Origin: an uncultured bacterium | GTDB taxonomy: Bacteria; Patescibacteriota; Patescibacteriia; UBA1558; GWA2-36-10 | Assembly: GCA_937912185.1 (NCBI GenBank) | Contig: CALDOH010000018.1 | Location: forward strand, 1-16,474 | DNA: 16,474 bases | Direction of reading: 5' to 3' | Translations under genes and position numbers: made by a program | Shown: piece after piece, positions 2,204 to 14,333 of the stretch | Layout of the letters: each line of letters begins with the position of its first letter | Numbering within the stretch: position 1 is the first letter of the stretch | The notes under the pieces: model-generated | The model's database searches: none | Seen by the model: the letters and a program-made list of their open reading frames with translations, nothing else | What the model was told of the DNA's origin: nothing

Positions 2204-2230
2204 ATGAAAAAAACGAATAGAAAACCATAA
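2204..2230 (+). CDS. Possible 8-codon leader peptide (MKKTNRKP)
   Basis: An ATG about 40 bases after the predicted transcript start opens eight codons rich in Lys and Arg. The TAA stop ends exactly where the long inverted repeat at 2230-2300 begins. That layout resembles translational or transcriptional attenuators, but there is no Shine-Dalgarno and an AT-rich leader yields such mini-ORFs by chance. Confidence 0.15.
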   Translation: MKKTNRKP

Positions 2231-2300
2231 AAATACCCTTATAGAGAGATATTAAAAAAGACGTCTTGCCCATATTTTATATTTTTTATAAGGGTATTTT
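2230..2300 (+). promoter_or_regulatory. 13-bp perfect inverted repeat in the operon leader
   Basis: The arms at 2230-2242 and 2288-2300 (AAAATACCCTTAT and its complement) pair perfectly around a 45-base loop. Inside the loop is a 10-bp palindrome, AAGACGTCTT (2258-2267). The right arm ends in TTTT but no long U run follows, so it is a weak candidate for a simple terminator. It could be an RNA processing stem, an attenuator or a protein-binding site. Confidence 0.6.
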
Positions 2301-2310
2301 ACCTGAAAGA

Positions 2311-2327
2311 TCCTTGAAAACTGAATA
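2311..2327 (+). promoter_or_regulatory. boxA/rRNA-spacer-like motif in the leader
   Basis: The sequence TCCTTGAAAACTGAATA resembles the CTTTGAAAACTGAATA-type motif in the leaders and 16S-23S spacers of many Firmicutes rRNA operons, where boxA supports Nus-dependent antitermination. No rRNA gene follows. If real, it could help polymerase read through the long operon, including its internal terminator. The resemblance is from memory and the motif is short. Confidence 0.3.
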
Positions 2328-2348
2328 TTACATAATACTAAGATAGAA

Positions 2349-2371
2349 GGTTTAAACAAAAGGGTTTAAAC
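2349..2371. repeat. Pair of GTTTAAAC palindromes
   Basis: The 9-mer GGTTTAAAC occurs at 2349-2357 and 2363-2371, 14 bases apart. Each holds the 8-bp palindrome GTTTAAAC. The two copies can act as a double operator in DNA, or fold in RNA as an 8-bp hairpin with a 6-base loop. A near match, GTTTAAAT, occurs just past the distal end of the block near 12508. Confidence 0.45.
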
Positions 2372-2399
2372 ATAAAATCAAGCAGAGGTTTGAGAAAAC

Positions 2400-2419
2400 T
2401 TCAGAATAGGAGGTCTGAA
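2400..2419 (+). promoter_or_regulatory. Small hairpin presenting an orphan Shine-Dalgarno (AGGAGG)
   Basis: TTCAGA (2400-2405) and TCTGAA (2414-2419) form a 6-bp stem whose 8-base loop is ATAGGAGG. No start codon lies at a proper distance; the nearest ATG is at 2438, about 24 bases away. It may be a ribosome standby site or a decoy upstream of the first gene, whose own AGGAGGT is at 2484-2490. GC content rises about here, so this is roughly where the acquired segment begins. Confidence 0.35.
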
Positions 2420-2496
2420 AAACCAATCGAAGGATCGATGGTTCTAATCTCAAGTTCGCAAGTCACTTCAATCCCTTTACCGCAGGAGGTCCAAGT

Positions 2497-2769
2497 ATGG
2501 ATCCCACTATCGAAATCACCGGAAAGGTCATCGGCTTTTTCGGCACGATTGTCGGGTTTACCGGCTTCATCATCATCCTCAAGATCATCTTGGGCGATTA
2601 CCTCAAGGTCGGTTTCACTCGGGCAGCCATCTGGATGTTCGAGGCGGGCGACGACCGGGCCAAGGAGCTCTACTGGCGCTACCTGGTCAACAAGAGGGAA
2701 GTCCTCGAGGAGATCTACCAGCAACTGCACACTCGCTTTGGCGAGGGTGCGGGAGATCAACCGCAGTAG
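2497..2769 (+). CDS. Small membrane protein, first gene of the operon (gene A)
   Basis: The 90-aa product has a long glycine-containing hydrophobic segment at about residues 8-35, enough for one TM helix or a short hairpin. A charged amphipathic helix follows at about 53-83 (RAKELYWRYL, KREVLEEIYQQLH) and a polar tail ends it. I recognise no family. An excellent AGGAGGT at 2484-2490 lies 6 bases before the ATG. It is the first gene of the co-directional block, with the first SPFH gene 71 bases downstream, so it may be a membrane subunit or helper of the SPFH pair. Two longer ORFs overlapping it in other frames are shadows. Confidence 0.75.
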   Translation: MDPTIEITGKVIGFFGTIVGFTGFIIILKIILGDYLKVGFTRAAIWMFEAGDDRAKELYWRYLVNKREVLEEIYQQLHTRFGEGAGDQPQ

Positions 2770-2840
2770 TTCCAGCCGAAGTGGTTTGAGCCTAACAGCT
2801 TGAACCAAGTCAAGAAGTTTCAATCTTAGGAGGCAATCCG

Positions 2841-4124
2841 ATGAGTATCGATTCTATCCTCGACAAGGCCCAACGGACCAAATGGACCCCCGGCCGAGTG
2901 ATCATCCTGGCGATGTGCGTCGTCATGGTGTTCATCGTTGCAATCAACGGTACCAAGCTGGTCGGCCGCAACGGATCGGGCATCTACCTGGTCCAGCAGG
3001 CCTACTACACCGGCAAGCTGAGCTGCAAGTTCAGCCCCGGCATCTACGCCAAGAAACTGGCGCTGGTCGAACCCTACAACGTGGCTTCGAGCTACAAATA
3101 TTCGGACAAGGAAGCCGACAGGAAAACCGCGATTGCCCCGCCGATCGAAGTTCGCTTCAACGACGGTGGTAAGGCCAAGGTCTACGGCGACGTTCGCTTC
3201 GTCCTGCCGGCCAACGATGTGGACATGGCTCACATCCACACCATCTTCGACAGCCATGAAGGGCTCATGCAGGAGTGCTACTCCCAGATCACCAAGGAAG
3301 CAGTCGTGATGACCGCCGCCCTGATGAGCTCGGAAGAAAGCTACGCCAGCAAGCGTAGCCAGTTTTCCGACTGGGTATCGGACCAGATCCAGAACGGCAT
3401 CTACCTGACCGAAGGTCGATGGGTCCAGGAGGGCATGAATGACAATGGCACGCCGAACATGAAGTTCCGTGTCGAAATCGCCAAGGACCCGACCACCGGA
3501 GAATTCCTCCGCAAAGAAAAGGTGGTCTCAACCTTCAACATTCGTGTGGCACAGTGTGTCATCAACGACATCGTCTATCTGGACGGCCTCGACGAATTGA
3601 TCGGCGCCAAGCGCGAATTCCTGACTTCGATCATCGCCGCCAATTCGGGAGCTGAAAAGGCCGAGCAGGACATGCTCACCGCCGAAGCTACCGGACGGAA
3701 GGAAGTCGAAGTCACGCGTTACGCCGCCAAGGAGCTAGCGGAAAAGAAGACTGCTGAGGCCAAGAACCAGAAGAAACAGGCTCTGATCGGTGCCGAAAAA
3801 CGGCTGGCTGTCGCTGAAGACAACTACTATGCCGCTTTGGACCAGAAAGAGACCTGGATCCTCCAGGGTACTGGCGAAGCAGAGATCCGTCGTCTGGCCA
3901 TGGAGGCTGACGGCGCCATCGTCACCAAGAAGGAGTACTACGAAAAAGCCTGGAAGGGCTATCGTGACGCCCTAATCAAGCAACGTCTGGTACCTGATGT
4001 GACCACATCCTACGACGCTGGCGAACTGCCGGCGGGTATCGTGGTCCTCAATGCTATCGACCGGCAGCTCCAGCAGGAGCTGGGCATCGATCTGACTTTC
4101 GCAACCAGCGGCAACAGTCGCTAG
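2841..4124 (+). CDS. SPFH/band-7 family membrane protein (gene B)
   Basis: The 427-aa protein has a single N-terminal TM helix (about residues 18-37), an SPFH/band-7-like domain (about 45-260) and a charged Ala/Glu/Lys-rich coiled coil (about 263-335). The conserved ILQGTGEAEIRRLA (340-353) is typical of the end of the prohibitin/flotillin coiled coil, and a further helical tail follows. SPFH proteins form large ring or cage assemblies on membranes; HflK/HflC enclose the AAA+ protease FtsH. The next gene is a diverged paralogue, sharing the segments AALM..EESY, DPTTGE..RKE and GTGEA, so B and C probably form a hetero-oligomer. AGGAGG at 2828-2833 lies 7 bases before the ATG. The family call comes from architecture and motifs seen by eye. 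Confidence 0.82.
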   Translation: MSIDSILDKAQRTKWTPGRVIILAMCVVMVFIVAINGTKLVGRNGSGIYLVQQAYYTGKLSCKFSPGIYAKKLALVEPYNVASSYKYSDKEADRKTAIAPPIEVRFNDGGKAKVYGDVRFVLPANDVDMAHIHTIFDSHEGLMQECYSQITKEAVVMTAALMSSEESYASKRSQFSDWVSDQIQNGIYLTEGRWVQEGMNDNGTPNMKFRVEIAKDPTTGEFLRKEKVVSTFNIRVAQCVINDIVYLDGLDELIGAKREFLTSIIAANSGAEKAEQDMLTAEATGRKEVEVTRYAAKELAEKKTAEAKNQKKQALIGAEKRLAVAEDNYYAALDQKETWILQGTGEAEIRRLAMEADGAIVTKKEYYEKAWKGYRDALIKQRLVPDVTTSYDAGELPAGIVVLNAIDRQLQQELGIDLTFATSGNSR

Positions 4125-4173
4125 GATGCTCGATCGTCAGATCAAATTTGAAACCTGAAAAAGTTAGGAGACC

Positions 4174-5424
4174 ATGATGTCCAGCTTCGGAGATCAAAGC
4201 AATAGCCGAGGGTCCAACAAGCTTCGCTTTGGCGTTGCGGCCCTCGCGATCGTATTCCTCGCGATGATCAGTTACGTCACGCTGTTCAAGAACTGCGTGG
4301 CCGGCTACTACCACATCATCGAGCCCATCAGTGGGCACCAGGAGTACTCGGCCCGGATGGAACCGGGTCGCTACCTCCTCGGCTTCGACAAGAAGCATGA
4401 GTGGGAGATCAGTCGGACCTTCTGGTTCTCGGCCGACGAGACCGAGGGCTCTCCGACGGATCAGAGTGTTGGCGTACGATTCAGTGATGGCGGCCAGGCC
4501 GGCATCAGTGGTTCTGTCCGCTACACCATCGGACCCGACGAGGAGAAGTTCATCGGCATGCACATCGAATACAGAAGCGAAAGCAACTTTCTCGATCGAG
4601 CTATCAACCAGCTCGTGACGGAAACGCTCACACTGACGGCCACGCTGATGCCGGCCGAAGAATCCTACACCACCCACAAGGCCACTTTCACCCAGTGGGC
4701 CTTGGACCAGTTGAACAACGGTGTTTACCTGGTAATAACCGAGTCGGACACACTGAGGACCCAAGACGGCGAGATGCATATCACGTCCCGGGCAATTCCC
4801 CGGCGAGATCCCGCTACCGGCGAGATCATGCGCAAGGAATACAGCCTGAAGGACTTTGATATCAACTTCTCGCAATTCGTGATCCAGGATCCGGACTACG
4901 AAACTCCGATCCTGGCTCAGATCAAGACCAAGCTGACCAACCTCATGGGCAAGGTTGCCAAAATCGCGGAAGCGGAGATGGCGGCTGCCCAGGAGAAGCA
5001 AGCCAAGGCCGAGGGTGCCTACAACGTCGTCACTGCTTTTTACGAGCAGGAGAAGGACAACGTTGTCAAGATCGTTGAAGAAGAACGAGACAAGAGCATT
5101 GCTCAGGCACAGTCTTCCCAACGCCGGGAAGTCGCGGCTCTCGACAAGAAAACCGCCGACTGGCAGAAGAAGGCCGACATCCTGTCTGGCACCGGTGAGG
5201 CACAATACAAGCAGCTGCTGCAAAACGCAGACAGCAACTTGGATATTCGCCTCCAGATGTGGTTGGTTTCGCACCTGGCACGAGCATCGGCCATTGCTGA
5301 TGGCCAATCGCCCGTACCGCACACTGTCCTGCAACAGGGCCTGTCCAACGCGGACCGGAACCTGGAGATCCTCGGCGTCGAAGCGGCCCGTGGTCTCCGC
5401 AAGACCGAAGGAAGCACTCCTTAG
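4174..5424 (+). CDS. Second SPFH/band-7 family membrane protein (gene C), paralogue of gene B
   Basis: The 416-aa product has a short polar N-terminus, one TM helix (about residues 19-38), an SPFH-like region (about 42-250) and a long coiled coil (about 250-335). The latter is followed by ILSGTGEAQYKQLL, the counterpart of ILQGTGEAEIRRLA in gene B. The two share many aligned blocks (ATLMPAEESY/AALMSSEESY; DPATGEIMRKE/DPTTGEFLRKE), so they arose by duplication, as HflK and HflC did. Two adjacent ATGs exist, at 4174 and 4177. AGGAG (4166-4170) is 3 bases from the first and 6 from the second, so translation probably starts at 4177. A long antisense ORF at 4054-5334 is a shadow. Probable role: a membrane scaffold with gene B. 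Confidence 0.82.
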   Translation: MMSSFGDQSNSRGSNKLRFGVAALAIVFLAMISYVTLFKNCVAGYYHIIEPISGHQEYSARMEPGRYLLGFDKKHEWEISRTFWFSADETEGSPTDQSVGVRFSDGGQAGISGSVRYTIGPDEEKFIGMHIEYRSESNFLDRAINQLVTETLTLTATLMPAEESYTTHKATFTQWALDQLNNGVYLVITESDTLRTQDGEMHITSRAIPRRDPATGEIMRKEYSLKDFDINFSQFVIQDPDYETPILAQIKTKLTNLMGKVAKIAEAEMAAAQEKQAKAEGAYNVVTAFYEQEKDNVVKIVEEERDKSIAQAQSSQRREVAALDKKTADWQKKADILSGTGEAQYKQLLQNADSNLDIRLQMWLVSHLARASAIADGQSPVPHTVLQQGLSNADRNLEILGVEAARGLRKTEGSTP

Positions 5425-5443
5425 CAGGGAGCGATCGTCTCAA

Positions 5444-5470
5444 GCTGGAGCGGATATAGTCCGCTCCAGC
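5444..5470 (+). promoter_or_regulatory. Strong intercistronic hairpin between genes C and D
   Basis: A perfect 11-bp stem (5444-5454 with 5460-5470, GCTGGAGCGGA and its complement) closes on a 5-base loop, TATAG. No U run follows, so it is not a classic terminator. It sits 19 bases after the stop of gene C and 23 bases before the Shine-Dalgarno of gene D. A role in mRNA processing or 3' protection, allowing more SPFH protein than downstream products, is likely. Confidence 0.7.
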
Positions 5471-5507
5471 ATCACTACATCGCAATCTCGCTAGGAGGTG
5501 AGAACGA

Positions 5508-6125
5508 ATGAACCATCAAATCACCCAATACCGCATCAGGCGGAAACAATTCCGTTCCTGGGGTGCTTGGGGATTGATAGGCGCCGGATTGATTTTCCTA
5601 TTGTTCGGCACCCCCTTCCCCACTCCGTTCGTCATCATACCGTTGATCTATCTCAGCATCATACTGGCAGTGGTGTCTGTCGCCATCTTCTTGGCCGGCA
5701 GTATGCCCCCCAGCACGAAGCTGCTGACGATCATCGCTCGAGAAACGAACGCTTACATCACCTGCGGTATCCTGATCGACCGCCTAGGCATCTCAGCCAC
5801 GGCCGCCGAAAGCGTGATCAAGCGCCACTTTGTCGAAGGTTACCTGATTCTGATGAATAAGGTCACCAACGAGACACAGCTGGCACAATGGATTACGCAA
5901 TTCGTCGGCGTCGGGCCCGATGCCGCCGGTATCGCCTGTCCCAAGACCGACGACACTGGAAATTCATCGCCCGAGTCGCAGATCGACCTGGGCACACTGA
6001 CCTCGGAGCTCCCGGAGATGGACGTCAGCGATATCAATAACATGATACTCGCCAACACCATGCACCTGGGATCCTCGGGTCAACCGACCAATGGACCTCA
6101 AAGGGGTGGTCGCCGGCGCTTCTAG
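5508..6125 (+). CDS. Two-TM protein with a cytoplasmic helical (possibly winged-helix) domain (gene D)
   Basis: The 205-aa product has a basic N-terminus (YRIRRKQFR) and two hydrophobic segments, about residues 18-37 and 40-65, with a FGTPFPTPF turn between them. A compact helical region (about 71-115) contains a helix-turn-helix-like pattern around ITCGILIDRLGISATAAESVIKRHFVEGYLI, reminiscent of winged-helix domains. The last 70 residues are polar and acidic, ending in a basic GGRRRF. The basic N-terminus and the two TM helices place the C-terminal domain in the cytoplasm. A near-perfect AGGAGGTGA (5493-5501) precedes the ATG. I recognise no family. The winged helix could be a protein-interaction module linking the membrane scaffold to the conjugation enzymes. 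Confidence 0.72.
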   Translation: MNHQITQYRIRRKQFRSWGAWGLIGAGLIFLLFGTPFPTPFVIIPLIYLSIILAVVSVAIFLAGSMPPSTKLLTIIARETNAYITCGILIDRLGISATAAESVIKRHFVEGYLILMNKVTNETQLAQWITQFVGVGPDAAGIACPKTDDTGNSSPESQIDLGTLTSELPEMDVSDINNMILANTMHLGSSGQPTNGPQRGGRRRF

Positions 6126-6178
6126 CAGCCGGCTACTCCCCTCCCATCTACTCTGAAGAATGACGGAAGGAGCAAACG

Positions 6179-6619
6179 ATGACGGATGACACGCGCGCAG
6201 ACGTCACCACCGAAACCGCTTCGGCGACTACGGCGGAAGACAATCTGCTTTGCCAATGCTGCGATCCGGCCAAACCCCTGGTCCCGAAAATGGACATGGG
6301 GCAAACCAACGATGGTACGGCCAAGATCGCGATCTGCATCTACCACAAGCCCGACAAGTCGGTCTACGTGCTCAACGCGGCCGGCAAGTACGAGCTCCGT
6401 GACGACCTCGAGGTTAGGGGCACCCAGATCGTCGTCAAAGAGACCGGTGAACCTTTCGGCCAGGCCGGAGCGCCGCCGCGTCTGATGGATCTCGAATCCG
6501 ACGACGACGTTCAGCCCGAGACGACTCCGAAACCGGATCCGACGCCTCCCTCCTCGGGAGACGATCGACCGGCGACCGGACCGACCCGGACGAACCTCGA
6601 AGGCGACGGTTTTTACTAG
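6179..6619 (+). CDS. Small protein with a CxCC motif and acidic Pro-rich tail (gene E); possible modifier protein
   Basis: The 146-aa product starts with about 20 Thr/Ala/Asp-rich residues. Then come LCQCC (24-28) and a compact region at about 47-95 with alternating beta-type segments (TAKIAICIY, SVYVLNA, YELRDDL, TQIVVKET). A disordered acidic and Pro-rich tail (about 104-140) ends in LEGDGFY. I recognise no family. It lies directly before the E2-like gene, whose GTG start is 2 bases after its stop, so the two are probably translationally coupled. A small, largely beta core with a flexible tail just before an E2 fits a ubiquitin-like modifier, perhaps trimmed by the JAMM protease to expose a Gly near the end (Gly142 or Gly144). 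There is no terminal GG, and the Cys cluster could instead bind zinc. AAGGAG precedes the ATG. Confidence 0.7.
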   Translation: MTDDTRADVTTETASATTAEDNLLCQCCDPAKPLVPKMDMGQTNDGTAKIAICIYHKPDKSVYVLNAAGKYELRDDLEVRGTQIVVKETGEPFGQAGAPPRLMDLESDDDVQPETTPKPDPTPPSSGDDRPATGPTRTNLEGDGFY

Positions 6620-6621
6620 CC

Positions 6622-7494
6622 GTGGTCCAAGAAAAGTACGACCTCACCGGACATCTGCAACGCTGGTCCATCGATGCTGATGCCGTCTACGACGGCATCA
6701 GCTGGGCCGGCAGCAACCGCGACCTATTCAGGCGAGAGCTCGAGGATATGCAGCAGCATTTCCCCTACTTCTACCTGACGGTCTCTACCGACACCAAAAT
6801 CCGCCAGGATGGAATCTTCTGCCCTCAGTGCGGTGACCTGATAACGGTAGCCGAAGGCGCGGGGCTGAGCTGCATCTGCTGTTCAGCCCTGTACAACTTC
6901 CCTCGGGAAGCGCTACTCGGATGGATTGGGCGTATACCCAGTCTCATAGGCCATACAGTCCGCGGCGAGTTCGGTAAAAGCGGCAACGTTAGAGGTAGAC
7001 CCTTTCTCAAGAAAGTCCATTCCCGCTTGCGGCGAATGGATGATCAGAGTTCTGACTGGCTACGTAGCCAGTTCATGACTCGCGAGGACAAGATTTACTT
7101 TGCCCCAAACGTTTTCGCCTTCTATCCCAACAACTGGCCGAGAAGTGGCCCCCGCGTCCTAGTGGCAAAGGAATACTTTGACGAGGTGCTCTTCACGGGC
7201 TCTCGCCATACACATTCCGATTTCCACGCCTATTCGGATATGGGCGGCAACTTCCTCCAGTTATGCATTTTCGGTACATGGCATCAAATGACAATGCGCA
7301 GCGTGCTACAGCAACGGATCGTGACCAAGATAATCATTGATTTGATGGTCGCGGATCTAGTTGCCGTTGGCAAGCTCAACGAGGTTGTCGGTTCGCTCGG
7401 CACTTCAGTGCACAGTTTGTACAACTGGATCGGCAAGTCCGGTCGTAGCGAACGATTTCAGCAAGAATACAACCGCCACGTTCAGATCACTTGA
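6622..7494 (+). CDS. Zinc-ribbon plus E2/UBC-like protein (gene F)
   Basis: The 290-aa protein has an N-terminal helical part, then a likely zinc ribbon C67-x2-C70-x13-C84-x2-C87 (with an extra Cys86). The second half resembles a ubiquitin-conjugating (E2) fold: FYPNNWPRSGPRVLV (167-181), a His-rich segment GSRHTHSDFHAY (193-204), GGNFLQLCIFGTW (208-220), then an amphipathic helical tail. E2 enzymes have a PxxP segment, an HPN-like motif, and the catalytic Cys in a G-x-hCL...W context, so Cys215 is the likely thioester Cys. It starts at GTG, 2 bases after gene E, with no Shine-Dalgarno, which implies coupling to E. A strong terminator follows. The E2 assignment rests on this motif order and on the E1 and JAMM neighbours, not on a database match. 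Confidence 0.65.
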   Translation: MVQEKYDLTGHLQRWSIDADAVYDGISWAGSNRDLFRRELEDMQQHFPYFYLTVSTDTKIRQDGIFCPQCGDLITVAEGAGLSCICCSALYNFPREALLGWIGRIPSLIGHTVRGEFGKSGNVRGRPFLKKVHSRLRRMDDQSSDWLRSQFMTREDKIYFAPNVFAFYPNNWPRSGPRVLVAKEYFDEVLFTGSRHTHSDFHAYSDMGGNFLQLCIFGTWHQMTMRSVLQQRIVTKIIIDLMVADLVAVGKLNEVVGSLGTSVHSLYNWIGKSGRSERFQQEYNRHVQIT

Positions 7495-7500
7495 GCGTAT

Positions 7501-7547
7501 GGGGCTACGGCAAACGCGCAAGCAAATGCTGTAGTCCCCTTTTTTTT
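7501..7547 (+). terminator. Intrinsic terminator inside the operon, between genes F and G
   Basis: GGGGCTACGGCA (7501-7512) pairs with TGCTGTAGTCCCC (7527-7539), giving 12 bp with one bulged T and one G-U pair, followed by eight Ts (7540-7547). This is a textbook rho-independent terminator just after the E2-like gene. Only 25 bases separate it from the Shine-Dalgarno of gene G and I see no promoter there. Genes G-I must therefore depend on read-through, regulated antitermination, or a promoter hidden within gene F. Confidence 0.85.
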
Positions 7548-7585
7548 ACAAGTTCCAGAACCAACAACCAGCTAGGAGTCTTGTC

Positions 7586-8494
7586 ATGAAAAAACTACCA
7601 ACTGTTTACTTCTGCAGTGATGCCTGGCAAAAGGCCACTAATGAAGTGCAGCGGTGGTTTGATATCGGCCAAAGGCTACAAGGACAGCGCTGGGAAAGCG
7701 CTATGTATCCGCTGGCTACTATCGAGACAAGCACAGGCAAGTCTCCATTAGAGCTGGTAGGTCTTGATGAGATCGACAAAGTAGTCGTTACTCATGTTCT
7801 CTGGCCACACGATAAGTTCAAGGACTACGGTCCTGGACGAGCCGGTTTCAAACCAGGAGTCAATGAGCACTTCAATCCCATGGTCGAGTCCATGATCGCA
7901 CGCTATCCTCGAATCGAAGCTTGTGCGAAAATGCACTCCCACACTTTCAAGGCTCGCTCTCTGTCGGAGGGTGACAAGAAATGCCATATCTTCAACGCCG
8001 TCGATTGGTACCAGTCAAAAGGACTCAACACCATGTTTAGCTTCTTGGTTAGTCCAAACGGCGACAACTTTGACCTACATTGCTTCGCGCCCGACAAAAA
8101 AGCGCGAATCGTTAGGCTAAAGGTGCGTTTCATTTCACGGGGTCATTCCCTGATTCAAGCCGCCCGGTTAGCACCCTACTATCGGACTGAATCCGGCAGC
8201 CAGTGGTGCGACCACAACAAGAACCTGTTGAAGAGGCATTTCCCAACGCTGAGAAACAACCTACCGTCATTTGGCTGGCGACGCTATGTGTTAAGCATAA
8301 ACCAAACCGAATACGTCATCTGTATACCGCCACGTTTCCCCTTCCAGGGACTGAGGTTGTACGCAGTTGACTACGAAAACGGTGAGTTCTTCTACCAAGC
8401 CCTTGCCTTACCCCGCTGGTGGCCAAGCAGCACCGAGCTAGCAGACTACAATCTGCTCAGTTTGGCAGAGTGGCTACAGAAAGAGAGTCCATAA
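7586..8494 (+). CDS. JAMM/JAB-domain metalloprotease with C-terminal UBC-like region (gene G)
   Basis: The 302-aa protein carries a full JAMM zinc motif: H117-S-H119, seven residues, S127, two residues, D130. The Glu of the family is probably E37 (QRWESAMYPLA), before the expected strand and turn. JAMM enzymes are zinc isopeptidases that remove or mature ubiquitin-like proteins. The C-terminal third (about 200-302) contains CIPPRFPFQGLRLYAV, PRWWPSSTEL and YNLLSLAEWL, with an order like that of an E2/RWD fold (P-FPF, W-P, terminal helix) but no obvious catalytic Cys, so it may be an inactive substrate- or E1-binding domain. AGGAG (7574-7578) precedes the ATG. The stop overlaps the start of the E1-like gene (TAATG). 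The JAMM call is firm; the UBC-like call is tentative. Confidence 0.85.
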   Translation: MKKLPTVYFCSDAWQKATNEVQRWFDIGQRLQGQRWESAMYPLATIETSTGKSPLELVGLDEIDKVVVTHVLWPHDKFKDYGPGRAGFKPGVNEHFNPMVESMIARYPRIEACAKMHSHTFKARSLSEGDKKCHIFNAVDWYQSKGLNTMFSFLVSPNGDNFDLHCFAPDKKARIVRLKVRFISRGHSLIQAARLAPYYRTESGSQWCDHNKNLLKRHFPTLRNNLPSFGWRRYVLSINQTEYVICIPPRFPFQGLRLYAVDYENGEFFYQALALPRWWPSSTELADYNLLSLAEWLQKESP

Positions 8495-10149
8495 TGAACG
8501 ACCTGGACCTTTACTTCAATCGGGTATTGCCGGTAATCGGTCGCCAGCTCGAGGGAAAGCGAATTGCTTTCTGCAACCTCGAGATGACGCACTTGATCGC
8601 CGATGCCTTTGCCCGTTGTGGAGTCAGGAACATGTTGTTCGTTGACTCTGCAGAAGCACAAACTGAAGGACCCTTTGTCCTGTCCTACGGCCAGCAATAC
8701 GCCGGCCGCAACATTGGACAGGCCATATCGGATCAAATCACTAGTCACAATCGCCTGATTGAGAATTGGCGACACCTTCAAGTCAAACGCGTCGAGGCTC
8801 TAAGGGCTCAAGACGTAGACCTGATTGTGGCAGCCGGAAACATCGCAGACTACCAGACCTTGGCGCGATTCAATACGCCACTGGTATTCTTCCTGGTGCT
8901 ATCCGGCACACCCGTCAACTCCCTGATACTGGTGAAACATCCGGAGCTACCGGATCCGAGCCCTGTTTTGGACAATGTCCGATCGGAGGATGTCCTAACA
9001 TCAATCGATCTTAAGCATCGTCTGATCTGGCTCGAAGCCAGCGACCTAGCCATGAACTTTGCCAAGGCACTGCTACTACGGGACAGTCCGTATGAACGCA
9101 CTGACCTGGAAGACTTGTTCTTCCGACAGGGCCGCAACGTGGTCCTACATGGTCAGACCAAATGGCCTTGGTGGGTACACTACCTCAATCCGCAACACGA
9201 ACTGGAGTACATCCAGCGCGTGCTCAATCAGCGCTACTTCGTTCCCCAGCCACCTATCAACATCCTCGCAGAAAAACGAGTGATGGTGATTGGCTGCGGC
9301 ACTGCTTCCTTACTAGTTGGCGAACTGGTAAACCATTGTCGGCAACTGTTCTTGGTTGACCCCAAGAGCTTCAGTTCCTTCAATCCAGTCAGACAACTAC
9401 TGGGAACAGACGCTATCAAGCAGCCAAAGCCGCAGGCCATTGCCGACTACCTACTCAAACGGGTCGGAAGCAATGAAGCTGGGACTTACAATTTCGAAAC
9501 ATCCAACCTGAAGATCAGCGACAGCGACCCCCGAACCCTACAAGAGTTCGAGGCAATACTGGACGGCTGGCAACCAGACCTGGTGGTAGTAGCTACCGGA
9601 CGCACCTACGATGACAACTATGCCATCTGCGAAATTCTTCGTCGCCGAGGCATCAGACACGTCATTCCCAGTGCTTTCCCGGGAGCCACCCACTACAAAA
9701 ACATCGTCGTCGATGGCAGTGACGGACCCTGTTACGAATGTATTCGTGGTAATACCAACCTCGACTACGCGGATGGAGTCGATCTCAATGCCCAAGCGCG
9801 CGAGATGTTTTACACGGATGTAGACGACCCGACTCAACCGGCCACGATCTTCGAAACCTGGCCCTCGAGTCATAGTCTTCTCAGACTGAGCATAGAGCTG
9901 CTGCTCGACCCCGAACTGAGGTCAGAGTGGTTCAACTCTTGCTTAGCCGGAGATAGAAGCTGTTTCGTAGGGGCCAACCTGACGCAAAAGACCGATGAAG
10001 GTGCTTACGCCTACGGCGTGACCTTTCCCGGTCAGATGGTGGTCTATGGAATGGACGAGCTCATCAGAGTGGACGAGGACGTCTATACTTGTCCCACCTG
10101 TCAGCGGAGCTATTCTGTCCAAAACAAGATAAGCACGGAAGGGAGTTAG
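8494..10149 (+). CDS. E1-like ThiF-family activating enzyme with two Rossmann domains (gene H)
   Basis: The 551-aa protein has a degenerate first Rossmann-like half (about 1-230; GKRIAFCNLEMTHLI where a glycine-rich loop would be, then GVRNMLFVD). The second half is intact and ThiF-like: VMVIGCGTAS (263-272), LFLVD (285-289), N297-x2-R300-Q301 for ATP, LVVVATG (363-369), and Cys pairs C413-x2-C416 and C533-x2-C536 likely to hold zinc. E1 enzymes adenylate the C-terminus of a ubiquitin-like protein and pass it to an E2. A catalytic Cys is not obvious; Cys483 and Cys490 are candidates. The ATG at 8494 overlaps the stop of gene G, so an upstream in-frame extension to 8419 is rejected. The next gene begins 2 bases after its stop. 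The tandem layout recalls E1s of two-domain type such as Cap2 or eukaryotic E1. Confidence 0.85.
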   Translation: MNDLDLYFNRVLPVIGRQLEGKRIAFCNLEMTHLIADAFARCGVRNMLFVDSAEAQTEGPFVLSYGQQYAGRNIGQAISDQITSHNRLIENWRHLQVKRVEALRAQDVDLIVAAGNIADYQTLARFNTPLVFFLVLSGTPVNSLILVKHPELPDPSPVLDNVRSEDVLTSIDLKHRLIWLEASDLAMNFAKALLLRDSPYERTDLEDLFFRQGRNVVLHGQTKWPWWVHYLNPQHELEYIQRVLNQRYFVPQPPINILAEKRVMVIGCGTASLLVGELVNHCRQLFLVDPKSFSSFNPVRQLLGTDAIKQPKPQAIADYLLKRVGSNEAGTYNFETSNLKISDSDPRTLQEFEAILDGWQPDLVVVATGRTYDDNYAICEILRRRGIRHVIPSAFPGATHYKNIVVDGSDGPCYECIRGNTNLDYADGVDLNAQAREMFYTDVDDPTQPATIFETWPSSHSLLRLSIELLLDPELRSEWFNSCLAGDRSCFVGANLTQKTDEGAYAYGVTFPGQMVVYGMDELIRVDEDVYTCPTCQRSYSVQNKISTEGS

Positions 10150-10151
10150 CC

Positions 10152-12398
10152 ATGCCAGAAAACAACCTGGTCCAGGCAGTACTGGAAACAGCACGTGATC
10201 TGGCAACAACCTCCTCTCGGAGGTTGTCCACTTCATTCGTGCTTCTCGCCATCGTAGACGCTGCTGAAAGTCAGTTGAAAGAAGCCTTGGATGCCTTCGG
10301 GTTGACCCTGGGCAATCTGACCAACAGCATCGTCAACGACACTTCGCAGGAACATGAAGGCTTGCTACGCAACGCCACCAATAGCTTCCAGCGAATGGCC
10401 CAAATGAGTGGCCAACAGCAACCGGATTTGGTTCACATCCTACTCGGTTTGCTGGTGGTACCACACACCAAGGTCCGAGATGTTCTAACAACTCAGCAAG
10501 TGGATGTCAGTTTGCTTCAAGCCAGCCTTTACCAGCTGGCAGAGATCGAACAACCACGACATCGCTCAGCTGGTAACACCAGACTGCCTCAGCGGCCTAT
10601 AGCAAGCAATGCAACGCCTGTTGCCCAACCACGGCAGATTTCCGAATTGTCGCTAGGCAACGGATCGGTCCTAGGACAATGTTCCAAAGACCTGACTCTG
10701 CTAGCCAGTCGCGGCGAGCTGGATCCGGTGATCGGTCGAGAAGATGAACTCACTCGTGCGTTCCAGATTCTCGGTCGTCGCAAGAAGAACAACCCAGTTT
10801 TCATCGGTGATGCTGGGGTAGGCAAAACTGCTCTGGCTGAGGGAATCGCCAGGATGATCGTCTTTGAAAGCGACAAGGTCCCAACCAAGTTGCGTGACAA
10901 ACACATCCTGGCTCTCAACGTCAGTAGCATCATTGCCGGCACCATCTGGCGCGGCAGCTTCGAAGACAAAATGCAACGACTCCTCAAGGAGATCTCTGAT
11001 CACCCCGAGGTAATCATCTTCATCGATGAGTTGCATACCGTCGTCGGCGCTGGTTCTGCTTCTGGATCCAACATGGACGTCAGCAACATCCTCAAGCCAG
11101 CCTTGGCTCGAGGTGATATGGTCTGCATCGGCGCCACTACTCTGGATGAGTATCGCAAGATCGAAAAAGATGAAGCCCTGGAGCGACGCTTCCAGCCCAT
11201 CACTATCGATCAACCCACTCCAGAGCAAACGCTACGCATCCTCAATCAGTTGGCAGTTCGGTACGAAGAGTACCACGGTGTCAGCTACGAAGATGATGCT
11301 CTCGAAGCAGCAGTCAGATTGTCTGTGCAATATATCCCCGACCGGAATCTACCCGATAAGGCCATCGACCTGATCGACGAAGCCGGTTCTCGCAAGAGTA
11401 TGAGTGGCAGCGAAGTTGTCACCGAAGAGGATATTGCTCAGGTGATCGCCAGTTGGAAGGGAGTTCTAATCCTGACCTCTGGACAAAAGAAGAAGAGAAT
11501 CCTCGACCTCGAGCAGCGGCTCAAGTCGAGTGTCATCGGCCAAGATCATGCCATCGAGGCCACCTGTGGTCGCCTGATAGCCCTACGCAATCCGGATAGA
11601 CCGATCGGCTCCTTCATCTTTATGGGGCCGACCGGTGTTGGCAAAAGCCTGATACCGGAGAAGCTGGCTGAATTTCTCTTTGCTGACCCCAAAGCTCTTG
11701 TGCAAATCGACATGAGCGAATACCAAGAGAAGTTCTCCGTCAGTCGACTGATCGGAGCACCGCCCGGCTATGTCGGACACGATGAAGGCGGGCAACTGAC
11801 CGAAAAGGTCAGACGCAAGCCTTTCTGCGTGGTACTACTCGACGAAATCGAGAAGGCCCACGTCGATGTCTTCGATCTCCTGCTCCAGGTCCTCGAAAAA
11901 GGTCATCTGACTGATGGTCAGGGCAGAAGCGTTAGCTTCAAGAATACCATCATCATCATGACCTCCAACGTGAGACCTGAAACCAGCAAGAGAGTGGGTT
12001 TCGGTGCCGACGAGTCATCGCCCTCTGTGGACGAAGCTCTGGCCGCCGCCCTAATGAAGCGTGGTTTCCGAAGGGAATTCCTCAATCGCGTAGATCAGAT
12101 CGTCCTGTTCCACGAGCTTGGTCCAGTGGACCTGCAGAGTATCGTCGACCTCGAGTTGACCAAGACAAAGCAGATCCTCCATGACCAGCATATGGAGCTC
12201 ACCGACGTGACGACAGCGGTCAAGGATCACTTGATCGCCAAAGGCTACAGCCAGCAATATGGAGCACGCAACCTGCGTCGCACCATCGAACGGCTGATAC
12301 TGACGCCTTTGGGTAGACTCATCATGGAAGGACAATTCCAAGAGGGTGATCACATCACCGCCAACCTGAAGGAAGGCAGTATCGTTTTTTCAAAATAA
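10152..12398 (+). CDS. ClpC/ClpA-type double AAA+ unfoldase lacking the M domain (gene I)
   Basis: The 748-aa protein has an N-terminal domain of probable Clp-N repeats (about 1-130) and a polar linker. AAA+ domain 1 follows (Walker A GDAGVGKT 219-226, Walker B IIFIDEL 288-294, pore loop GTIWRG with Trp in place of the usual Tyr). Domain 2 then follows (Walker A GPTGVGKS 492-499, pore loop GYVG 539-542, Walker [12 protein letters not shown] 560-570, sensor 1 TSN 604-606, arginine finger FLNRVD 643-648, sensor 2 GARNLRR 704-710). VGF at 616-618 matches the ClpP-docking loop of ClpC in position and sequence. The coiled-coil M domain of ClpB/ClpC is missing between domains 1 and 2. It begins 2 bases after gene H, preceded by GGGAG. 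It should unfold or degrade proteins, presumably those marked by the E1/E2 pathway. No ClpP gene is in the window. Confidence 0.93.
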
Positions 12399-12425
12399 TA
12401 TCCAACAACGGCAAGTAGCCCACAC

Positions 12426-12467: not shown

Positions 12468-12498
12468 AGGAGTCTCTACGGAGGCTCCTCTTTTTTTT
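12468..12498 (+). terminator. Intrinsic terminator at the end of the operon
   Basis: AGGAGTCTC (12468-12476) pairs with GAGGCTCCT (12481-12489) around a TACG tetraloop of the stable UNCG class, then eight Ts at 12491-12498. It closes the + strand operon, and base composition falls to the AT-rich host level immediately after it. Confidence 0.9.
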
Positions 12499-12522: not shown

Positions 12523-13008
12523 CTAATCATCATCGTCGTCATCATCTCCTCTACCACCTGTATTGGCTATAGGATTATTATTGACCGCCTCAATCGCTGT
12601 GCTATCGACAACTGTCCCCAAGATACCTATCTTGTAGCTAGCCATAATATTGCTGGCATTGGCAGAGTGCCCCTGAGATGCAAAGGCAGCGCCAATATCA
12701 GCTCCACAATAGCTAGTAATATTGCTAGCACCGCCTGGATGCGCCCTAATATAGCTAGTTACGTTATAGACATTGTTTCCAACAGTTGCCCAACAATCAG
12801 CCGCTGTATTGTGCTGAGCTACTAAAGCTGTAGTTAAAGTATAGCTAATTGGACTTGGAACATTTGAATCACTATTGGCACTCGTATTAGTATTGATATT
12901 AGCAGCAACATTCTTGCCCCCAAGATTTTGTTCTACCAAAGTATTGGCATAAAAAAAGCTAACTGCTATCCAAAAAATAAAAACCGCTACAATAACAATT
13001 TTACTCAT
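12523..13008 (-). CDS. Membrane-anchored cytochrome b5-like heme-binding protein
   Basis: The 161-aa product has an N-terminal signal anchor (about residues 3-21) and a Ser/Asn/Thr-rich spacer (about 35-55). A cytochrome b5-like domain (about 58-132) follows: HNTAADCW (66-73), NVYNVTSYIRAHPGG (79-93), and a second His in QGHS (112-115). His90 and His114 are the expected axial heme ligands. The C-terminus is an acidic run of seven Asp. It starts at the ATG at 13008, 8 bases after the stop of the flavocytochrome gene. An in-frame start 14 codons upstream would overlap that gene and is less likely. The heme domain is predicted outside the membrane, where it could take electrons from the neighbouring ferric-reductase-like protein. 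No Shine-Dalgarno. Confidence 0.87.
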   Translation of the reverse strand: MSKIVIVAVFIFWIAVSFFYANTLVEQNLGGKNVAANINTNTSANSDSNVPSPISYTLTTALVAQHNTAADCWATVGNNVYNVTSYIRAHPGGASNITSYCGADIGAAFASQGHSANASNIMASYKIGILGTVVDSTAIEAVNNNPIANTGGRGDDDDDDD

Positions 13009-13016
13009 AAATTTTA

Positions 13017-14333
13017 TTACAATAATTTGAAAGCTTCTATGTTTATACAATTTTTAGGAATATTCTCTTTTCTCAAGACTGAAACAAAATATTCAATCAT
13101 ACCAGCTGGCCCGCAAATATAAAATTGACATGATTTGAGGTCTTTGGCCATTGATCTGAGTTTTTCTAGATCAAAGCGACCTTCTTTGTCTGAAATATAG
13201 GTCGTCAAATTAAAATTTGGACAAGCGGCAGACATTTTTTTAAGACTGTCGGCTTCAGCCAAGTCATCCAGTGATGATACGACATAAAACAAATCTACCT
13301 TGGCATTTTGGGTGGGACAAGAAGTAAAATCTCGAGCCATAGATAAAAATGGTGTAATACCAATGCCACCAGCAATCCATACCTGGCGCTCATTTATACT
13401 AATACCGTCGCCAAAAGAACCATAAGGTCCATCAACATAAGCCTTAAAACCTTTTTCTAAAGAATCCATTTTCTTGGTATAGTCACCCAATATCTTGGCA
13501 ACAATAGCAATACTACCGTCAGAATTTATCTCTGCTACAGAGAAAGGATGTTCCTCACCTTTTTTAATATCTGGAAAGCTGACAAAGATAAATTGTCCTG
13601 GCTTCATCTCAATGGCTTTCTTGTCTGGTGCGAGCGTAACTTTGATAGAATTTTTACTAGAATGTCCTATAGCTAGGATACTATAGGCTTTGGCTTTTAT
13701 ACCATAGTGGACCAAGGCCAAGCGCAGCAGATAAGCTACAACACTGACTGATATCAAGATTATAAAATAAGCAGCCAACCAAGGAATTCTTTTTATATCG
13801 CTATCTATCAGCAGACCATGAATACCACCAATCATCAGTGGTACTGACAATAAACTATGCAGTGACTTGAGTCGCTCGTAGCGCAGCCGCCACAAAAAAG
13901 TCATTAGTATCAACCCCATAAATATCAACATAGCAATATAACCAAATAGATAGGCCGCGTTGCCCCAAAATGAAAATATTAACCAGGCTGCTTGACTAGA
14001 CACTGGCAAAAACCTAGCGGCTAAAAATAAAGGATGAAAAATAATAAATACAAAGGATATTACCCCTAGCCAACGATGAACATTGAGTACCCTAGGTAAT
14101 CCATGAAATAGCCGATCTAGCCAAACAAAGCGACTAGCCAAGAGTAAACTAAAAGAAAAAGCTGCTAGACCAATAAGTCCTGTCAATTTGCCTAAGGTAC
14201 CAAATAGTACTGGCCAGGGACTAAATAACTTGGCCAAAGGTAGACTTTGCGACAAAATAAAAACTGGTAGCAATATAAGCAAAACCAATACCAATAGGCC
14301 AATATATGACTTTAATTTTTTAGCTATAGGCAT
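13017..14333 (-). CDS. Ferric-reductase-like transmembrane flavocytochrome
   Basis: The 438-aa protein has a multi-helix membrane half (about residues 9-205) and a cytoplasmic ferredoxin-reductase half (about 215-438). His86 (VHRWLG) and His100 (IFHPLF), paired with His159 (LHSLLS) and His172 (GIHGLL), are the likely ligands of membrane hemes, as in the ferric-reductase/NADPH-oxidase superfamily. The reductase half has the FAD motif HPFSVAEI (262-269), the nucleotide-binding GGIGITP (322-328) and CGPAGM (407-412). It should carry electrons from NAD(P)H through FAD and heme across the membrane. It starts 3 bases after the upstream 80-aa gene, and the cytochrome b5-like gene follows 8 bases later, so the three look co-transcribed. 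The end acceptor is unknown: iron, oxygen or the b5-like protein. Confidence 0.9.
   Translation of the reverse strand: MPIAKKLKSYIGLLVLVLLILLPVFILSQSLPLAKLFSPWPVLFGTLGKLTGLIGLAAFSFSLLLASRFVWLDRLFHGLPRVLNVHRWLGVISFVFIIFHPLFLAARFLPVSSQAAWLIFSFWGNAAYLFGYIAMLIFMGLILMTFLWRLRYERLKSLHSLLSVPLMIGGIHGLLIDSDIKRIPWLAAYFIILISVSVVAYLLRLALVHYGIKAKAYSILAIGHSSKNSIKVTLAPDKKAIEMKPGQFIFVSFPDIKKGEEHPFSVAEINSDGSIAIVAKILGDYTKKMDSLEKGFKAYVDGPYGSFGDGISINERQVWIAGGIGITPFLSMARDFTSCPTQNAKVDLFYVVSSLDDLAEADSLKKMSAACPNFNLTTYISDKEGRFDLEKLRSMAKDLKSCQFYICGPAGMIEYFVSVLRKENIPKNCINIEAFKLL

Follow-up and report, generated by a model that had tools for sequence, protein, structure and literature searches.

A patescibacterial operon that joins E1-, E2- and JAMM-like genes to a Clp unfoldase gene and an SPFH membrane module

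Can a bacterium couple the ubiquitin-like conjugation of proteins to their unfolding by a Clp ATPase? Bacterial ubiquitin-like systems are so far known mostly to tune antiviral enzymes or phage particles. The question is raised by contig CALDOH010000018.1 of an uncultured member of the Patescibacteriota, whose genome assembly is 866 kb long and 89% complete; the whole contig (16,474 nucleotides) was analysed and is hereafter called the window. A preliminary description had proposed that an operon at 2497-12398 encodes E1-, E2- and JAMM-like enzymes, SPFH proteins and a Clp unfoldase. All nine open reading frames (ORFs), here named A to I, were confirmed; they lie on the plus strand and take up this region, and their conserved order supports one operon. 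We favour, with moderate confidence, a reading in which the operon links a cycle of ubiquitin-like conjugation to protein unfolding by a Clp ring dedicated to it, in most cases at the membrane. This reading rests on the genes present and their conserved order, on a model of F with a UBC fold, on motifs that are conserved in the E1-, JAMM- and Clp-like proteins, and on the presence of ClpP in the host genome.

The conjugation enzymes and the Clp ATPase

A neighbourhood search, as the preliminary description had suggested, yielded four loci, and all four carry E1, E2, JAMM and Clp genes side by side: the window, BM519 (taken as its congener), G993 (another family) and G890 (a third family). The identities proposed earlier for the SPFH, E2-like, JAMM, E1-like and Clp genes were borne out by families, motifs and the model. 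No significant match was obtained for A, B, D, E, F or G in Pfam, PADLOC or NCBIfam, nor for A, D, E, F, G or H in PHROGs.

H resembles E1/ThiF enzymes. It matched 26 PADLOC families at E-values up to 1 (best 2.8e-9), and all of the 25 listed are E1-E2 models; the anti-phage 6A-MBL cap2_3 model was matched weakly. The residues of a putative adenylation site are kept, G267 and G269 (G267-x-G269), D289, N297, R300, Q301 and K312 being invariant in all four loci, and these include the ATP-site residues on which the earlier proposal depended. H also has a zinc tetrad (C413/C416/C533/C536) and two other invariant cysteines, C42 and C490, the latter a candidate for the thioester cysteine.

F is predicted to be E2-like, with a UBC fold, as had been proposed. 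Its AlphaFold2 model built from four sequences reached a predicted local distance difference test score (pLDDT) of 71, and 50 of the 50 Foldseek matches listed were UBC-fold entries, with weak E-values. C215, which is the candidate catalytic cysteine, W220 and H221 are invariant in the four loci, and an insert contains a zinc-ribbon-like set of cysteines (C67/C70/C84/C87). A transmembrane (TM) scan gave one hydrophobic stretch each in F and H, which we read as buried. By eye, the small protein E has candidate metal ligands (C25, C27, C28, C53 and H56) that vary between loci; because the cysteine pattern changes in G993 (CKCEEH, then one Cys), metal binding by E is a guess.

G contains the perfect HxH-x7-S-x2-D motif noted before, HSHTFKARSLSEGD, at residues 117-130 (H117, H119, S127 and D130). 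The motif is complete in the window, in BM519 and, with a gap of 8, in G993, and it arose (gap 7 or 8) in 38 of 20000 shuffles of G. In the alignment H117, S118, H119, S127 and the Glu candidates E20 and E37 are invariant. By eye, the C-terminal half of G may be RWD/UBC-like.

I is predicted from its motifs to be a Clp unfoldase with two AAA+ domains and a ClpP-type loop. It matched AAA_2, AAA, ClpB_D2-small and Clp_N of Pfam, with Walker A motifs at 219 and 492 and a VGF loop at 615. Both Walker A motifs are kept in the window, G993 and G890, and the [IVL]GF loop is present in all four loci (VGF in the window, IGF in G993 and G890, LGF in BM519, where the frame of I is interrupted by an ambiguous base, N, and the loop was read in the second piece). 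A ClpB-type middle (M) domain is lacking: the ClpB model matches in two stretches and the ClpA model in one, and the match to ClpC likewise splits. The earlier assignment of I as ClpC-type held in part: its best match among solved structures is ClpC, but the best NCBIfam scores were for ClpB and then ClpA, both below cut-off. A ClpP gene is present in the window's genome, and 31 of the 35 genomes searched, this one included, have one.

Related loci and the membrane module

BM519 carries all nine genes on two contigs, with the break inside B, at 78-87% protein identity to the window, and the ratio of nonsynonymous to synonymous substitution rates (dN/dS) between the two is 0.11-0.34 (for I, the first two thirds only, about 496 codons). 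Their DNA similarity spans 2221 to 12408 and ends there, the flanks being unlike. G993 has A-B-C-D-E-F-G-H-I on a single strand, the order unchanged, at 32-50% identity (A 32% over 72 amino acids (aa), E-value 1.6e-10; B 47%, C 50%, D 34%, E 34%). Thus, the genes are together in other genomes, as the earlier proposal required. At the G890 locus we found E-F-G-H-I at 24-39% identity (E 39%, over 33 aa only) and no relative of A-D at an E-value of 0.1 in the 19.9 kb examined, a span that does not cover the rest of the genome. As this locus has E-F-G-H-I only, genes E to I make up the core common to all four loci and A-D a membrane module that can be separated from it, although SPFH had been taken as a constant part of the system. 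Downstream of the G890 core (L051 12192-15970) lie genes for ADP-ribosylglycohydrolase-like, nicotinate-nucleotide adenylyltransferase-like and, by eye, Nudix-like proteins and for a nicotinate phosphoribosyltransferase; at L051 4282-5268, a gene product with a weak fn3-like match has repeated E-like CxCC-type motifs and the C-terminus GGTGRNRRR.

A two-sequence H profile matched 4 of 380 genomes of the class, namely the window's, G286 (which shares match coordinates with BM519's genome G319 and was taken as the same genome), G993 and G890; G287, another congener, had no match. With a four-sequence profile, in genome sets that overlap, matches were found in 1 of 10 genomes of G890's order (G890 itself), in 2 of 111 of G993's order (G993 and, weakly, G1117) and in 7 of 379 of the phylum (the window's and six weak, partial ones). 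Around two of these six, G267 and G175, relatives of F, G or I were not found at an E-value of 1e-3. G1117 has an E1 gene adjoining one for a small JAB-like protein (HTHPSTTADPSGQD; L063 2-1953), CBASS-like by eye, and no F or I relative was found on its 5.3 kb contig. A single-sequence H search of 286 phylum genomes returned only itself, and alignment searches returned only BM519, both for G (379 genomes) and for H (35 genomes of BM519's order). A scan with H-based patterns in 84,980 species, one genome per species, returned one relative, L012, which is BM519; it is not an occurrence count, since both patterns were restrictive and artificial variants had been used in designing them. In plasmids and phages, tblastn gave no match to H; in plasmids, G had no match, F had two at chance level (E-values 4 and 9), and I had 2283 records of general Clp kin, all below 60% identity and not informative. 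Viral contigs had no relative of H, H pieces or a G piece. A ThiF match elsewhere in the window's genome was set aside as lying, by eye, inside a malic-enzyme-like frame. The system seems rare and sporadic in the phylum because few genomes match the H profiles, and old because the loci are strongly diverged; beyond the phylum, coverage was limited to plasmid and phage records and to the scan with the narrow patterns.

The TM scan gave one helix in A, one N-terminal helix each in B and C, and two in D. C matched Pfam Band_7 above cut-off (7.1e-6). B, with no Pfam match of its own, is assigned to SPFH by homology to annotated SPFH proteins and to C, of which it is a paralogue (28% over 338 aa, E-value 1e-27). 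In a tree of 17 rows, B (window, G993) and C (window, BM519, G993) formed separate groups, each with 100/100 support, implying that the B/C duplication predates the split. The charges before and after the TM helix (3/2 in window B, 2/0 in window C and 2/0 each in G993 B and C) suggest an N-in orientation with the SPFH domains outside the cytoplasm, as in HflK/C; for window B this rests on a difference of one charge. Wider kin of B and C (about 20-34% identity) are single SPFH proteins in Vibrio phages, crAss001, a 462 kb phage, plasmids and two phylum genomes, and no relatives of F, G, H or I were found in 15 stretches around such genes. By eye, a small one-TM gene adjoins the SPFH gene in phages and a plasmid, like A beside B (L029 14710-16179, L032 1438-2896, L034 9741-11224 and L006 11989-13360). 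Downstream of the G993 operon is a short SPFH-like gene (L050 5022-5819; 19% identity to B, E-value 3e-5), near prepilin-like and lipoprotein-like genes (by eye).

Layout and sequence context of the operon

The features of the window are listed in Table 1. Start codons had been described as overlapping or abutting the preceding stop, and this applies to three of the eight junctions, since the gaps are 71 (A-B), 49 (B-C), 83 (C-D), 53 (D-E), 2 (E-F), 91 (F-G), -1 (G-H, the ATG of H overlapping the stop codon of G) and 2 (H-I) nucleotides. F starts with GTG in the window and with ATG in BM519. The leader contains a perfect inverted repeat of 14 bases (arms 2230-2243 and 2287-2300), possibly an attenuator or operator, and its RNA fold has a z of -3.4; BM519 retains the right arm, while the left arm is altered. 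Rfam had no match at gathering score. The hairpin behind the operon is weak taken alone, because the region has 7 terminator-like sites against 10.6 in shuffles. Outside the operon, a low-GC pair consists, by eye, of a cytochrome b5-like gene (12523-13050) and an adjoining ferric-reductase-like membrane gene (13017-14333).

Table 1 Features of the operon and its borders in the window
Feature	Positions	Strand	Description	Basis
Leader	2221..2496	+	AT-rich, carried with the operon	BM519 DNA similarity starts at 2221
A	2497..2769	+	90 aa, one TM helix (14-32)	ORF, TM scan
B	2841..4124	+	SPFH paralogue, 427 aa, N-terminal TM 20-38	homology to C
C	4174..5424	+	SPFH protein, 416 aa, N-terminal TM 19-37	Pfam Band_7
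D	5508..6125	+	two TM, basic N-terminus, predicted cytoplasmic tail	TM scan, charge
E	6179..6619	+	small, Cys-rich, possibly metal-binding	by eye
F	6622..7494	+	E2-like (predicted UBC fold) with inserted zinc-ribbon-like part	alignment, model, Foldseek
G	7586..8494	+	JAMM-type protein	motif, alignment
H	8494..10149	+	E1/ThiF-like enzyme	Pfam, PADLOC, alignment
I	10152..12398	+	predicted Clp unfoldase, tandem AAA+	Pfam, NCBIfam, solved-structure match
Hairpin	12468..12489	+	terminator-like hairpin, then T run	hairpin scan

Mechanism, rival readings and known systems

In the coupled cycle that we favour, H would adenylate the C-terminus of a modifier and hand it, probably via Cys490, to Cys215 of F, which would attach it to target proteins; the zinc ribbon of F and the Cys-rich E may replace an E3, and G would take off or trim the modifier. 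I would recognise the conjugates and pass them to the host ClpP by its VGF loop. A-D would form a membrane platform in which B and C build an SPFH cage on the outer face, while A and D would be links with tails reaching the cytoplasmic enzymes, so that membrane proteins would be presented for extraction.

Several observations weigh against this reading. Scans with Pfam and NCBIfam found no ubiquitin-like family match among the operon proteins, a C-terminal Gly is conserved in none of A-I, and the tails of E (GDGFY) and D (GGRRRF) are not retained in G993; an exposed glycine after trimming of E or D by G was considered and dropped, as these tails are not conserved. A beta-grasp may be concealed in D, in E or in the N-terminal 220 residues of H. 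For F, the best Foldseek E-value was 0.018, with none below 0.001, a model from two sequences had a pLDDT of 31.8, and the top fold matches were UEV domains, a group without the catalytic Cys. G matched no model of the JAB families, Pfam included, and D130, present in three loci, has no aligned Asp in G890. H scored 26.7 bits (3.7e-6) against Pfam ThiF, below the cut-off of 28.1 (H of G890 reached 29.1 bits), and it reads TGR where ThiF and MoeB have the TDN motif, the Asp of which is not in place. SPFH relatives occur without conjugation enzymes in many other loci, and their lack at the G890 locus makes the platform not obligatory. Because the SPFH domains are predicted to be extracytoplasmic, their part would be that of HflKC towards FtsH and not, as described earlier, one beside the Clp ring. 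Among the four genomes, the search for ClpP by name covered the window's. All biochemistry is inferred here, from the cage and the thioester transfer to the modifier, the substrates and their degradation, and tagging in particular because no ubiquitin-like modifier was identified; of the earlier proposal of tagging followed by Clp unfolding, the link between Clp and conjugation was nevertheless strengthened by the four loci.

The lack of a modifier in the family scans would also suit a modifier-free conjugation like that of type II CBASS (cyclic-oligonucleotide-based antiphage signalling), in which H and F would join an operon protein (e.g. an SPFH protein, D or E) by its C-terminus to targets and so work as a switch, which G would reset, and I would disassemble the complex without feeding ClpP, the whole serving as a regulated membrane-associated defence or stress device. 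The matches of H to CBASS-like E1-E2 models and, weakly, to 6A-MBL cap2_3, and the sporadic distribution are in its favour. We nevertheless consider it rather unlikely: neither a cyclase nor an effector is recognised among the nine proteins (Pfam, PADLOC), D and E end differently from one locus to another, and the loop conserved in all four points to work with ClpP. The same missing modifier, together with the ThiF-type matches of H, could mean that there is no protein conjugation and that H works as ThiF, MoeB or peptide-modifying enzymes do, activating a peptide or small molecule, with F and G shaping the product and I acting as a chaperone. This is very improbable: the JAMM partner, and an F that models as a UBC fold and has a conserved Cys, agree better with protein conjugation, and no biosynthetic enzyme was recognised in the operon (Pfam).

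The operon could instead be two neighbouring modules without a shared biochemical function, an accessory SPFH module A-D of a phage or plasmid kind and an independent conjugation/Clp module E-I, as the G890 locus and the solitary SPFH relatives in phages, plasmids and other phylum genomes would allow. GC content at third codon positions (GC3) in the window is 0.72-0.79 in A-E, 0.66 in F and 0.58-0.61 in G-I, and in BM519 values of 0.78-0.91 give way to 0.59-0.64 for G and H (I left out); because of this drop, the operon looks assembled from two pieces. Separate functions are improbable, however, as two families share the order A-I at protein identities of 32-50% and the nine genes of both congeners have a single conserved leader in front of them. 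An assembly chimaera or contamination, with a high-GC fragment misjoined into a low-GC genome, would account for the sharp edges between the operon block (about 50-60% GC) and its flanks (34-41%), but it is contradicted by BM519, which has the same high-GC block and low-GC flanks with other neighbours, and by the GC of 0.38-0.45 in the G993 operon against 0.31-0.36 in its nearby flanks, so its probability is practically negligible. GC by itself was not kept as proof of recent transfer, BM519 being a congener and the G993 operon having much lower GC.

Compared with known systems, the E1-E2-JAMM set paired with a Clp unfoldase, and with an SPFH module in three of the four loci, is a variant of the bacterial ubiquitin-like systems. 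Like type II CBASS and Bil, the latter consisting of a BilA-type ubiquitin-like protein with E1, E2 and JAB, it is predicted to have bacterial E1, E2 and JAB-type chemistry, and H matches the PADLOC E1-E2 models; unlike them, it has no CD-NTase or effector, and E1 and E2 are unfused. No CD-NTase match was found among the nine proteins in Pfam, PADLOC or NCBIfam. Of the Bil set, E1, E2 and JAMM are present, and a ubiquitin-like protein was not recognised in the family scans, which a divergent one could escape. We know of no SPFH or Clp protein in type II CBASS or Bil. No PRTRC model was among the NCBIfam matches listed for the nine proteins (for I, the best 25), though divergent members could escape. 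The operon's AAA+ protein is of Clp type, and the FtsH double ATPase, MoxR and vWA of the FtsH ternary systems are not found with it.

In the bacterial operons of types 6a-6e described by Iyer, Burroughs and Aravind in 2006 (PMC1779556), E1, E2 and JAB genes adjoin as here, and the type 6d E2 has a conserved His downstream of the Cys, as does F (H221). The available text reports an operon that links ClpS with a JAB and a ThiS/MoaD-like protein, which already hinted at a tie to Clp, and notes neither SPFH genes nor a Clp unfoldase gene in these types; JAB and E1 are typically fused there and separate here, and type 6d has a small ubiquitin-like protein with a C-terminal Gly that we did not find (PMC1779556). 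The MoxR-vWA FtsH ternary systems also join JAB, E1 and E2 to an AAA+ machine in an operon (PMC7159879). According to the available text, they use an FtsH-type ATPase, MoxR, vWA, a ubiquitin-like-E2 fusion and a caspase-like effector, rare vWA proteins bear ClpN repeats, an SPFH protein or Clp ring is not named, and the sole mention of SPFH is a cited title (PMC7159879). As in HflK/HflC-FtsH (PMC12005517, PMC12048511), the operon has two SPFH paralogues with N-terminal TM helices and predicted extracytoplasmic domains next to an AAA+ machine, except that a Clp ring replaces the membrane-bound FtsH and a conjugation set is added. In the accessible part of a 2026 paper that surveys nine SPFH proteins of P. 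aeruginosa, the words ubiquitin and ThiF do not occur. No paper describing the present combination by title or abstract was found in the open PMC literature, a search that covered neither subscription papers nor outside preprints.

The operon may have a counterpart in function among eukaryotic pathways. Erlin-dependent endoplasmic reticulum (ER)-associated degradation combines ubiquitin conjugation and extraction by an AAA+ protein with an SPFH complex whose domains are lumenal, and its downstream machinery includes a JAMM enzyme. It differs in being eukaryotic, encoded by separate genes and served by p97 and the proteasome, and the likeness is an analogy of function only. We tentatively propose, as a possibility short of an even chance, a bacterial analogue in which E1-E2 marking at the SPFH platform would lead to extraction and degradation of membrane proteins by Clp-ClpP, with a non-classical modifier that need not be a beta-grasp ubiquitin-like protein. 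The locus raises the questions of what lets a conjugation set work when no modifier can be recognised and of why Patescibacteria with small genomes retain a nine-gene membrane device. Since E1, E2, JAMM and Clp genes lie together in all four loci, whether ubiquitin-like marks lead to degradation in bacteria becomes testable with one operon, and the same gene order in another family suggests that the operon is a compact equivalent of the tagging and destruction of proteins at membranes.

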